From Chloroflexota bacterium (lineage in GTDB: Bacteria; Chloroflexota; Anaerolineae; Promineifilales; Promineifilaceae): a stretch of 44,581 bases of DNA. Numbering within the stretch: position 1 is the first letter of the stretch; each line of letters starts with the position of its first letter. Positions 18,468 to 22,104 of the stretch are shown in pieces. Below the pieces are notes generated by a model. It searched no databases, was not told the DNA's origin, and saw only the letters and a list, made by a program, of their open reading frames with translations. The position numbers and the translations under genes were made by a program. Location of the stretch: the NCBI GenBank assembly GCA_022616275.1, contig JAKEFB010000281.1, positions 1 through 44,581 of the forward strand, given 5' to 3'.

Positions 18468-20090
18468 TTGGCCGGCTGGGGTCCAGTACCCACCCTATCT
18501 CGCTTGTCTCGTGTCGCCTTGGAAGAAACTCTGGTTTTTCCCTACCAGCGCCTGCGCCTACGCCTCGCAACCCATTGGCCGCTGTTGGCCGTTTGTGGGT
18601 TGGCGGCGTTGGCCCTATTCTGGCGCCTGGGCCAGGGGACCTTGCGCGACTTTGACGAAGCCATTTACGCCGAGGTCTCGAAGGAAATGATCCAGAGCGG
18701 CGATTGGCTGACCCCCCATTGGGGTTACAAACCCCATCTGCACAAACCTCCCCTGCTTTACTGGCTAACGGCGATACTTTTTCAACTCTTTGGCGTCAAT
18801 GAATTGTGGGCCAGGGCGACTTCAGCCCTCTCTGGTATCTTGCTCATCGCCGTTGTCTTCCTGATTGCCTGGCGCCTGTTTGGCCAGCCGGCCGCCATTC
18901 TGGCGTCCATTATTTTGCTGACCAGCCAGCAGTTCCTGACCCTGGCCCGCGATGGTGTCTTTGACATTCTTATGAACCTGTTCATTTACCTGGCCGTCTA
19001 TGCCTACGTTCGTCTGCGAGAGGGAAACCAGCGCTGGTGGTATCTGGTAGGGATCGCCTTCGCGCTGGCCTTCATGACCAAATCGGCCGGCGCCCTGGTT
19101 GCGCCGGCGACTATTTTCCTGGCGCTGCTGTTTGACCGTCAACTTACGGCAACCTTTCAATCAAGGCAGTTCCGGCAAGCTGTTCTCCTGGCCGTCGTTC
19201 TTCTTGTCCCCTGGCACATAGTAGTCTACCTGAAACACAGTGAACTATTCGTGGAGCAGTACATCTTTTTTAACGTCGTCACACGAGCCACGACCAACGT
19301 CGCCGTCCAGCCGCGAGCCTACGATTTCTACATCACGGCGCTGCGTTTCTACTTCTTCCCCTGGTTCTACCTTTCCCCTTTTGCCCTGGCCCTGCCCAAA
19401 AACGTCAAAGGGGAGCGGCCCTCAAGGGTGCTACTCATCCTCGTCGTTCTCGTCTTCACCGTCTTCACCGCCGCCCAGAGCAAAATCCCCTGGTATATCT
19501 TTTCCCTCTATCCCGCCCTGGCTATCCTCGTTGCCCACGTTGTCGTCCAGGCCATCTGGCAGGAACACCTCCTCGCCCGGGCCGGCCTGGCCCTGGTGGC
19601 CGCGGCCGTGGCCCTCTTTGCCGCGCCACCGGTCCTGGCTTTCACCTTAGTCCCTGTCGTCTTGCTTGGTACTCTACACCGGGTTATCGGCCGGAAGGCT
19701 AACCTCCGCCTGGAGATGGTTGTCTTGCTGGCCTTTTTACTGGCAACGGCCGTCGTCCGGCTGCGGCCGCTCTACGACCGGCCGGCCGAGCCGGCGTCGC
19801 TGTTGGCCCGGCTGGCGGCCAGCCCTGACCCGGCCGGGCGAGAGCTGCTGCTGGTGTACGGCCGGCTGTACCAGCCGGCGGCACTGTTCTATAGCGGCCG
19901 GCCGGTCGAGCGGGCGCCGACGCCGGAGCGGCTGGCCGAGCTGGTTCCACCGGGCGCTGTTCGTGGTCTGATCATTGCCAGGGAAGAGATGGAGGAGCTT
20001 ACGGCTGATTACGAGATGGAGGCGCAGGCGAGCGTTGACACTTTCGTTTATGTCCTGATTCAGCGCCGGGGCCGGCCTACCGTTGAGTAA
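18468..20090 (+). CDS. GT39 (ArnT/PMT-like) integral membrane glycosyltransferase
   Basis: About 540 aa with about 11 membrane helices. The GT-C signature RDFDEAIYAEVSKEMIQSGDW followed by KPPLLYWLTA marks transferases that move a sugar from a polyprenyl-phosphate donor to an extracytoplasmic acceptor (lipid, protein or glycan). The C-terminal about 100 aa form a soluble extracytoplasmic tail. The start is uncertain: there is no ATG before the first loop, and TTG 18468 or TTG 18504 are the candidates; TACAAT lies immediately upstream at 18462-18467. Acceptor and sugar cannot be told from the sequence. Confidence 0.83.
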   Translation: MAGWGPVPTLSRLSRVALEETLVFPYQRLRLRLATHWPLLAVCGLAALALFWRLGQGTLRDFDEAIYAEVSKEMIQSGDWLTPHWGYKPHLHKPPLLYWLTAILFQLFGVNELWARATSALSGILLIAVVFLIAWRLFGQPAAILASIILLTSQQFLTLARDGVFDILMNLFIYLAVYAYVRLREGNQRWWYLVGIAFALAFMTKSAGALVAPATIFLALLFDRQLTATFQSRQFRQAVLLAVVLLVPWHIVVYLKHSELFVEQYIFFNVVTRATTNVAVQPRAYDFYITALRFYFFPWFYLSPFALALPKNVKGERPSRVLLILVVLVFTVFTAAQSKIPWYIFSLYPALAILVAHVVVQAIWQEHLLARAGLALVAAAVALFAAPPVLAFTLVPVVLLGTLHRVIGRKANLRLEMVVLLAFLLATAVVRLRPLYDRPAEPASLLARLAASPDPAGRELLLVYGRLYQPAALFYSGRPVERAPTPERLAELVPPGAVRGLIIAREEMEELTADYEMEAQASVDTFVYVLIQRRGRPTVE

Positions 20091-20143
20091 CTGGGGCAAG
20101 TTGCCCCGGCAACTTGCCCTGGCAATTAATTGCTACGATTACT

Positions 20144-20172
20144 TTGACAATCCTGGCCGGGACGGCTATAAT
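20144..20172 (+). promoter_or_regulatory. Strong promoter of the rplU-rpmA-rpmE operon
   Basis: TTGACA (20144-20149), 17 bp spacer, TATAAT (20167-20172): both hexamers are perfect consensus. An AT-rich stretch lies just upstream (AATTAATTGCTACGATTAC). Predicted start near 20179. Confidence 0.85.
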
Positions 20173-20178
20173 TTCCAG

Positions 20179-20268
20179 TCGCTGTACTGGTAATCCGACA
20201 CTACCCGTACAATGAGTGGCAATCATCCGAACCGGCATCCCCATGCCGGTTCTTTTTGGGAGGTACAT
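20179..20268 (+). promoter_or_regulatory. Candidate L21 leader with attenuator-like hairpin
   Basis: A 90 nt 5' leader ends in ACCGGCAT-CCCC-ATGCCGGT followed by TTCTTTTT, i.e. terminator-like, placed directly before GGGAGG and the GTG start. L21 leaders are known autoregulatory RNAs in Firmicutes (Rfam L21_leader); I cannot claim homology, only similar logic. Confidence 0.5.
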
Positions 20269-20583
20269 GTGTACGTAATCGTTGAATGTGGCGGCCGGCA
20301 ATACCGCGCCGAGGAAGGCCATAGCTTCAGCGTCGAGAAGCTGCCTTATGAAGTCGGTGAACAGATTGAATTGAACAACGTCCTGCTGGTGGCTGACGGG
20401 GACGACGTGACTGTTGGCCAGCCGGCCATTTCCGGCGCTGCGGTGAAGGCCACGGTGGTCGAGCAGTACAGGGGCAAGAAGATTTTTGTCTGGAAGTACC
20501 GGCCGCGGGAACGGTATCGCCGCCGCCAGGGCCACCGGCAGAGCTACACGCGACTGCGGGTTGACGAGATTGTCGTAGGTTAG
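20269..20583 (+). CDS. rplU: 50S ribosomal protein L21
   Basis: 104 aa. YVIVECGGRQYRAEEG at the start and the RQGHRQSYTRLRVDEI end match L21. I chose GTG 20269 because GGGAGG sits just before it and homologues begin M-Y-x-I-V-E; the longer frame from 20212 would translate the leader hairpin. First gene of the conserved L21-L27 pair. Confidence 0.95.
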   Translation: MYVIVECGGRQYRAEEGHSFSVEKLPYEVGEQIELNNVLLVADGDDVTVGQPAISGAAVKATVVEQYRGKKIFVWKYRPRERYRRRQGHRQSYTRLRVDEIVVG

Positions 20584-20646
20584 AGGATAGAGCGAGAGCG
20601 AGAGCAGAAACTCATCGCTCACCGCTATTTTGTAGGAGAGTAAATC

Positions 20647-20910
20647 ATGGCGCATAAGAAAGGCACCGGCTCGAGTCGAAACGGCCGTGATAGCAATTCC
20701 AAGCGGCTCGGCGTGAAGAAATACGGGGGTGAATTCGTCATTCCCGGAAATATTATTTTGCGCCAGCGGGGTACTCGCTGGCGGCCGGGCGAGCACGTAG
20801 GTGTAGGTAAAGACTACACCATTTTTGCTCTGATCGAGGGGCAGGTGAAGTTTGAGAACCGGCACGGCCGGAAATACGTCAGCGTCTATCCCGTGGAAAA
20901 GGCGTCGTGA
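20647..20910 (+). CDS. rpmA: 50S ribosomal protein L27
   Basis: 87 aa. Starts [28 protein letters not shown], the diagnostic L27 N-terminus that reaches the peptidyl-transferase centre. There is no cleavable N-terminal extension as in Firmicutes L27. TAGGAGAG precedes the ATG. The gap from L21 contains GAGCGAGAGCGAGAGC, a short repeat tract. Confidence 0.97.
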
Positions 20911-20920
20911 GGGTCAGGAC

Positions 20921-21367
20921 ATGAAAGAAGAAATTCATCCCAAGTGGTATCCTGAGGCCAAGGTCATTTGCAACGGCGAGGTGGTCATGACCGTTGGCTC
21001 CACCAGGCCCGAGTTGCACGTCGAAATCTGGTCGGGCAATCATCCTTTTTACACCGGCCAGCAACGCCTGGTGGACACTGAGGGCCAGGTCGAGCGCTTT
21101 ATGCGACGCTTGCATCGGCGCCAGGAAATTCAGACTGAGTTTGAACAGCAAGCTGAAGCCGCTTCGCCGCTGGCTGCGCCTGTGGAAGAATTGGGGCTGA
21201 CGACGCGGGCGCAAAAGGCCCTCAGGGACGAAGGCCTTAACACCATTGGTGACGTGCTGGAACGCTACCGGCAAGGCGAGGACGCCCTTTTAGCCATTAC
21301 CGGCGTCGGCCAGAAGGCGTTGATTGACATCAAGAGATTCCTGCGCAACCAGGGAATGATTGAGTAA
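20921..21367 (+). CDS. rpmE: 50S ribosomal protein L31 with a C-terminal RNA polymerase alpha-CTD-like domain
   Basis: 148 aa, about twice the size of normal L31. Residues 1-70 are L31: IHPKWYPEAKVICNGEVV, then STRPELHVEIWSGNHPFYTG, then VDTEGQVERF. Only C17 remains of the four zinc cysteines, so this is the zinc-free C-minus type. A linker (71-86) leads to residues 87-148, which align along their full length with the alpha-CTD of RNA polymerase: PVEELGLTTRAQKAL, GLNTIGDVL, then LLAITGVGQKALIDIK. Counterparts of E. coli alpha R265, G296 and K298 are R96, G130 and K132; N268, C269 and S299 are replaced (K99, A100, A133). It could tie the ribosome to DNA, RNA polymerase or rRNA. It ends before a strong terminator, closing the L21-L27-L31 operon. 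Confidence 0.9.
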   Translation: MKEEIHPKWYPEAKVICNGEVVMTVGSTRPELHVEIWSGNHPFYTGQQRLVDTEGQVERFMRRLHRRQEIQTEFEQQAEAASPLAAPVEELGLTTRAQKALRDEGLNTIGDVLERYRQGEDALLAITGVGQKALIDIKRFLRNQGMIE

Positions 21368-21419
21368 GGGCTGGTTTTAATCGCCAATGGCCCGAATGGG
21401 CGAATAGAATAAAATGGAA

Positions 21420-21456
21420 GGGCAGGCGCAGCAATGTGCCTGCCCTTTTAACTTTT
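21420..21456 (+). terminator. Rho-independent terminator of the L21-L27-L31 operon
   Basis: GGGCAGGCGCA (21420-21430) pairs with TGTGCCTGCCC (21435-21445) around a GCAA tetraloop; TTTTAACTTTT follows. The words at 21380-21410 just before it (AATCGCCAATGGCCCGAATG) recur at 31834. Confidence 0.9.
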
Positions 21457-21513
21457 AGGAAGAGGAGTGCGGCGCGAGAGCTAGAGTAGACTCTAACTCC
21501 AGAGGGAGGTGAA

Positions 21514-22104
21514 ATGAGCAAACATACACACGGCCGGGTGGAACTGATTTGCGGCAGTATGTTCAGCGGCAAGACCGAGGAGCTGATCCGGCGGGTGCGC
21601 CGGGCGGTGATTGCCAGGCAAAAGGTGCAGGTCTTTAAGCCGGTGATTGATACCCGCTACCAACTGGAACGGGTTACCTCGCACGACGGTCTCAATTTTG
21701 AGGCCCAGCCGGTACAGGCGGCGATGGACATCCTGGCCCAACTGGATCCGGATACTACGGTCGTGGCGATTGACGAGGTCCAGTTCTTTGACGCCGGGGT
21801 CGTGGCCCTGTGTGACGCGCTGGCCGAGCAGGGCCGGCGGGTGATTTGCGCCGGACTGGATACCGATTTCCGGGGCGTGCCCTTCGGCCTCATGCCCGAT
21901 TTGCTGGCCCGCGCCGAGCAGGTGGACAAGCTGCACGCCATCTGTGTGGTCTGTGGCGAAGAAGCCAGCCGCACCCAACGGCTGATTAACGGCGTCCCGG
22001 CCGCCTACGACGATCCGGTTGTCCTGGTCGGTGCGGCTGAGGTCTACGAAGCCCGCTGCCGCCGCTGCCATCAAGTCCGGCCGGCGCAAAATGGAGGGCA
22101 TTAA
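21514..22104 (+). CDS. tdk: Thymidine kinase (type II)
   Basis: 196 aa; phosphorylates thymidine for the dTMP salvage route. P-loop [16 protein letters not shown], Walker [12 protein letters not shown], and the zinc-binding CVVC and CRRC pairs are all present, as is the lasso-loop Tyr region ([11 protein letters not shown]). AGGGAGG lies seven bases before the ATG. Its stop TAA abuts the ATG of hpt (TAAATG), so the two salvage genes are translationally coupled. Confidence 0.96.

Follow-up and report, generated by a model that had tools for sequence, protein, structure and literature searches.

A ribosomal protein L31 fused to an RNA polymerase alpha-CTD-like domain in Anaerolineae

The linkage between ribosome and RNA polymerase differs among bacteria and is debated even for Escherichia coli, as described in two articles (PMC7858274, PMC10953045), the first of which names uS10 as the site where NusG couples polymerase to the ribosome. 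On the polymerase side, NusA AR2 is described as binding the C-terminal domain of the alpha subunit (alpha-CTD; PMC4650657, PMC6614801), and the E. coli alpha-CTD residues that face AR2 are reported to be those that recognise UP elements (PMC4496710). On the ribosomal side, E. coli bL31 is described as the main part of bridge B1b, with last eight residues that aid subunit association and a C-domain that attaches to the head of the 30S subunit, where it touches bS13 and bS19 and reaches as far as bS14 and helix 41 (PMC9966373). The same protein is reported to be an autogenous repressor that uses its N-terminal segment (PMC10931766).

Long models of a neighbouring ribosomal protein also exist: the L21 models PRK12278 (NCBIfam NF008915 and NF008916; 216 and 223 positions) are named L21 and are about twice the length of L21, like the tailed L21 proteins described below. 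Their addition, which we take to be an HhH-type domain of alphaproteobacteria, is not on L31, and the L21 of the locus studied here matches positions 2-102 only. Among the papers listed from the open-licence PMC literature, none names a fusion of L31 to an alpha-CTD in its title or the beginning of its abstract.

The fused gene and the kinship of its tail

The window (the whole stretch of 44,581 nucleotides analysed here) encodes on its forward strand, at 20921-21367, a protein of 148 residues in which L31 is fused in frame to an alpha-CTD-like domain; bL31 of E. coli, by comparison, has 70 residues. The L31 core (residues 1-66; 20921-21118) matched PF01197 over residues 1-63 (1.5e-24) and NF001809 above that model's cut-off (1.7e-29). 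A linker (residues 67-85; 21119-21175), partly helical in the structure model, leads to the alpha-CTD-like domain (residues 86-148; 21176-21364). A sequence-only reading had described a fusion of this kind with an L31 part of the C-minus type, and both descriptions held: PF01197 and PF03118 matched in one frame, the tail was found in relatives and the zinc cysteines are absent. These cysteines are lost in the window's family and kept in tailed L31 of other families, so the tail is independent of their loss. The loci with tailed L31 that retain them are L041-L045 and L047.

The locus otherwise resembles that of bL31, with a complete core and with rplU (L21; 20269-20583; TIGR00061, 6.3e-36) and then rpmA (L27; 20647-20910; TIGR00062, 2e-35) lying 5' of the fused gene on the same strand. 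L21 here lacks an alpha-CTD tail and L27 lacks a tail; a thymidine kinase gene lies 3'. The rplU frame is listed as 20212-20583, and its L21 profile match starts at GTG 20269. A promoter-like TTGACA-17-TATAAT element (20144-20172, forward strand, 12/12) stands 5' of rplU-rpmA-rpmE, and the gene order is consistent with the operon with L21 and L27 that had been proposed. A profile search of the genome found the fused protein as its only L31 match, which makes incorporation into the ribosome likely. The rpoA gene of this genome sits elsewhere and retains its own CTD; the alpha-NTD family was absent from the Pfam matches of the fused L31, which is thus not classed as RpoA.

To what family the tail belongs was addressed by profile, sequence and predicted fold. 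PF03118 matched residues 78-142 (9.1e-10), scoring 38.6 bits where Pfam sets the cut-off at 23.8. When the tail alone was compared with PDB sequences using phmmer, the best 37 of 53 rows were RNA polymerase alpha chains (top, 4.5e-5). An AlphaFold2 model built from 37 aligned fused L31 proteins had a mean pLDDT of 78.9 and a pTM of 0.42, a value at which the position of the tail relative to the core is not predicted; pLDDT was 82-87 in blocks of ten over residues 91-148. Helices were predicted at residues 56-80, 88-91, 95-103, 109-117, 120-124 and 131-143. The best 50 of 275 Foldseek matches of this model to the PDB (E <=10) were ribosome and RNA polymerase structures only, in which we took the ribosome chains to be L31 and the polymerase chains to be alpha or alpha-CTD. 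Among the alpha-CTD chains the best aligned with TMt 0.80-0.87 at 1.2-1.5 A, and isolated alpha-CTDs (1lb2, 3k4g and 1doq among them) with TMt 0.64-0.74 at 2.3-2.7 A. Profile and predicted fold support kinship of the tail to the alpha-CTD of RNA polymerase, as the sequence-only reading had suggested. The likeness extends to the predicted fold, the positions of R265, G296 and K298, a slightly acidic charge and a tether; the polymerase domain sits on alpha-NTD, whereas the tail sits on L31.

It is very improbable that the tail is instead a helix-hairpin-helix domain of the generic kind, no nearer to alpha-CTD than to other such domains, the outcome that would have told against the sequence-only reading. 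The generic model HHH_5 does match the window protein (0.061), and in the L21 tail of locus L055 it reaches 2.8e-7, above its own cut-off. PF03118, however, exceeded its cut-off and outscored HHH_5 in all eight hosts scanned, and no other HhH protein was seen among the best 50 of 275 Foldseek matches. A short insert also argues for the closer kinship: it is common to L31 tails and Chloroflexota rpoA and missing from the alpha subunits of E. coli and Thermus. The same insert is missing in two of three L21 tails.

Distribution, conserved residues and selection

Had the tail been an assembly accident, it should not recur; a full-length fusion match in 32 of the 36 genomes of the window's family, the window's included (among the matches listed), rules this out as its source. 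One of the 32 (G029) carries an in-frame TAA. G002 and G030 have an L31 that is split or truncated where contigs end, and L31 was not found in G009 and G022 among the matches listed. Among the matches listed, the fusion was also seen in three of four genomes of the other family of the order and in 3/20 further genomes of the class. A class sample, with the tail defined as an L31 match reaching profile position 134 or beyond, gave tails in 43/160 genomes from 12 family groups; any L31 match was seen in 156/160 and no L31 tail in 117/160, again among the matches listed. The tail is thus conserved in relatives, contrary to the second way in which the sequence-only reading could have failed.

The search across Chloroflexota that this reading had called for places the tail in the class. 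The fusion was listed in 14 genomes of a phylum sample (n=151), all among its 19 class genomes, and in 0/132 genomes of other classes; in 129 of those 132 the L31 match ends by position 100. Contigs of named genomes gave at least 80 loci, of which at least 34 were whole-length; all of those listed are titled Chloroflexi, Anaerolineae or lower taxa (Promineifilum, Leptolinea, Thermoflexales and Anaerolineaceae). A further 46 of the matches listed from these contigs are confined to the L31 core; almost all of them are cyanobacterial, with one titled Tatlockia and one Anaerolineae MAG. In other members of the class, the C-termini of L31, S16 and L21 bear charged extensions of an unrelated kind.

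UP-element contacts of the alpha-CTD are R265, N268, G296, K298 and S299. Numbered as in E. coli alpha, the window tail keeps R265 (R96), G296 (G130) and K298 (K132), and has K, A and A in place of N268, C269 and S299 and D in place of E302. R96, L101 and G130 are invariant within the tail across 37 fused proteins. Among 73 L31 tails, which pool two genome collections so that one genome may count twice, R265 was kept in 69/73, G296 in 73/73 and K298 in 61/73 (R in 3), counts that lean high because a tail profile had selected the rows. N268 was kept in 19/73 and S299 in 23/73; the 24 rpoA CTDs compared have R265, G296, K298 and N268 in all 24 and S299 in 23. The tail of locus L013, whose gene has an in-frame TAA, is counted in these 73 and lies outside alignment A1. 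The earlier claim that UP-element residues are kept is thus borne out only in part, R265, G296 and K298 being kept in most L31 tails and N268 in few. Of the surface that serves for nucleic acid or AR2, the tails appear to retain the core but not the entirety. N268, C269 and S299 are mostly altered in L31 tails, so the partner or the affinity may differ from those of alpha-CTD; E302 is mostly D.

Mean tail charge was -2.1 (range -10 to +3, 73 rows), compared with -1.2 for the rpoA CTD. The tail is under purifying selection and the linker evolves faster: in eight hand-picked pairs, some near saturation, dN/dS was 0.00-0.15 for the tail (6/8 pairs with finite dS), 0.02-0.09 for the L31 core (7/8) and 0.12-0.78 for the linker (4/8). 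Low values in the tail and higher ones in the linker indicate that selection holds the domain and leaves the tether looser.

Related domains and the origin of the tails

Domains of this type are not confined to L31, a wider pattern than the sequence-only reading had noted. We ran tail profile A2 over 42 genomes of the class and examined the hosts, in a listing that covers loci L064-L078 and those from L159 on. Among the loci listed, NusA carried an alpha-CTD-like domain in 14/42 genomes, including the window's own (residues 436-492; PF03118 7.1e-7, above cut-off; L065 408-2363, G000:C10). AR1 and AR2 of E. coli NusA are likewise domains in its C-terminal part; the Chloroflexota NusA domain, by contrast, scores as PF03118. 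Beta-prime carried an internal alpha-CTD-like domain in 7/42 genomes among the loci listed (L069, L163, L165, L175, L176, L179 and L180), inserted at about E. coli residues 559-565 in six aligned cases, and a ribosomal-protein tail was not found in these seven genomes.

Two further ribosomal proteins have C-terminal domains of the same type: L21, in families f7 and f39 (L055 2064-2645, L169 708-1289, L172 577-1113 and L210), and S16 (L071 815-1399, L168 564-1157, L173 650-1141, L178 593-1561 and L211). Among the matches listed, L21 tails were seen in 4/150 class genomes and S16 tails, by an S16 profile, also in 4/150; these are the same four genomes (G044, G106, G127 and G078), in which an L31 tail was not found among the matches listed. 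The genome of L178 (G073) is a fifth S16 case by profile A2; its tail follows a long linker and its S16-profile match stops at 115. Profile A2 did not find an alpha-CTD-like domain in the S16 extensions of the window's genome (2.8 bits), G003 and G024 or in the L21 extensions of G065, G094, G118 and G179, and gave the L21 of G167 only 7.9 bits (E 0.04). Three long proteins (L166, L167 and L181), one TPR-like at its start, each have at least two alpha-CTD-like domains, and an XRE-type helix-turn-helix protein (L072 444-938) has an alpha-CTD-like tail.

Across 93 L21-L27-L31 loci, which pool two genome collections so that one genome may count twice, the tail was on L31 in 73, on L21 only in 3 and on neither in 17. 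L21 was visible in 72 of the 73 L31-tailed loci and tailed in 0/72, and no genome was found with both tails among the matches listed. Ribosomal-protein tails accompanied the NusA domain in 10/14 genomes, against 8/28 without it (p=0.019), and the beta-prime insert in 0/7, against 18/35 without it (p=0.014); for the NusA domain and the beta-prime insert p was 0.075, all three values being from the 42 genomes and uncorrected for kinship.

One genome preserves a trace of copying. The L31 tail DNA of G092 is 86% identical over 195 bp to one domain of that genome's NusA (L170, G092:C87), which has two tandem alpha-CTD-like domains and lies about 2.4 kb from the L31 tail on the same contig, on the opposite strand and read away from the L21-L27-L31 cluster. 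G063, of the same family group, has L31 without a tail. Gene conversion and a fresh fusion are equally possible in G092, and on either view domains of this type pass between the gene of a transcription factor and that of a ribosomal protein. A quick tree (65 columns, few for its 102 rows; L31 tails thinned from 73 to 46, TPR-like rows excluded) gathered 43/46 L31 tails together, with row X350 among them, on a branch that is not starred (SH-aLRT 93). The G092 tail grouped with its own NusA domains (SH-aLRT 95, starred), and the L047 and L107 tails fell elsewhere. The starred branches require two changes or more, yet the AU test did not reject either of the clades put to it (p 0.68 and 0.87), a single L31 clade included, so the L31 tails may have one or several origins.

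Candidate roles of the tail

The proteins uS14, uS3 and uS10 are neighbours. Our preferred reading, held tentatively and at somewhat less than an even chance, is that the L31 tail is a docking module that links the ribosome to the transcription complex. The C-terminus of E. coli L31 is located on the head of the 30S subunit close to bS14; by analogy, the tail would be expected to project from that side of the ribosome on its variable linker. There it could bind the partners of the polymerase's own alpha-CTD, namely a C-terminal domain of NusA or DNA near the polymerase, and such docking would raise the chance that the leading ribosome and polymerase stay coupled. Computation shows the fusion, its predicted fold, its conservation and selection, and the related domains on other proteins; where the tail sits on the ribosome of Chloroflexota, what it binds and that it aids coupling are what we infer. 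Docking is suggested by the profile and fold match, the retention of R265, G296 and K298 and the low tail dN/dS; by related domains on alpha, beta-prime, NusA, L31, L21 and S16; by the finding of L31 and L21 tails together in no genome among the matches listed, the NusA-L31 copy in G092 and the co-occurrence of tails with the NusA domain; and by the location of the bL31 C-domain (PMC9966373) and the overlap of AR2-facing and UP-element residues (PMC4496710), as reported in those articles.

Several observations count against docking: 117/160 class genomes show no L31 tail among the matches listed, and N268, C269 and S299 are mostly altered. S16 and L21 occupy other ribosomal sites than L31, which fits poorly with one fixed docking geometry. 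Moreover, the window genome's NusA carries an alpha-CTD-like domain, so the partner known from E. coli may be missing. A broader and rather doubtful proposal is that in Anaerolineae the alpha-CTD would serve as a general adaptor, with related copies on three transcription proteins (alpha, beta-prime and NusA) and, depending on the lineage, on L31 or on L21 together with S16. Ribosomes would thereby gain a covalent, stoichiometric polymerase-type dock, with coupling built into the ribosome and not left to NusG or NusA alone. A polymerase-type domain on a ribosomal protein, selected in many families of the class, makes the question of coupling testable in one protein, and its echo on L21, S16, NusA and beta-prime hints at a built-in link between both machines.

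The main rival to docking, itself unlikely, needs no link to transcription: the tail would fold onto the 30S head in the region of uS14 and helix 41, its HhH surface holding rRNA and stabilising subunit association or assembly. The part of E. coli L31 in bridge B1b and the effect of its last eight residues, as reported (PMC9966373), agree with such a role, as do the unrelated charged C-terminal extensions on L31, S16 and L21 in the class, which show that extensions are common here. An acidic mean charge of -2.1 is unexpected for an rRNA-binding extension, however, and neither the varying linker nor the related domains on NusA and beta-prime favour it. Those domains, with the one on S16, would also be left unexplained if free L31 used its tail to bind the operon that encodes it, as DNA or as leader RNA, and so feed back on expression. 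This autoregulation is improbable. It has a precedent in the autogenous repression by E. coli bL31, but that is reported to work through the N-terminal segment (PMC10931766). The promoter of the operon does match the consensus, and in the window, as in some relatives, rplU is preceded by a terminator-like hairpin; the promoter, however, is equally strong in loci without the L31 tail, and Rfam gave no match, and hence no leader, at E up to 1 over window positions 19900-21700. Just 5' of the -35 box, 70 L31-tailed loci had an AT fraction of 0.54, compared with 0.47 for the locus as background, a small excess; in 15 loci lacking the L31 tail both values were 0.41.

The tail could also owe its presence to no function at all, as an easily copied domain that spreads selfishly or neutrally and is tolerated at protein ends. 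The copying seen at the DNA level in G092, between its NusA and L31 genes, is what such spread would produce, as are the many hosts and the patchy distribution. We consider it a slim prospect, given a tail dN/dS of 0.00-0.15, the invariance of R96, L101 and G130 in 37 proteins, and the finding of no complete tail-less L31 among the matches listed from the 36 genomes of the window's family.

The region 5' of rplU has features of its own. Its promoter element had a best match of at least 10/12 in 85/88 related loci and at least 9/12 in 86/88, in scans of about 260 bases each that carried no shuffle control. A terminator-like hairpin with a T-run lies at 20229-20252, just 5' of the rplU ribosome-binding site, and a crude scan found a hairpin of this type 5' of rplU in 21/88 loci.
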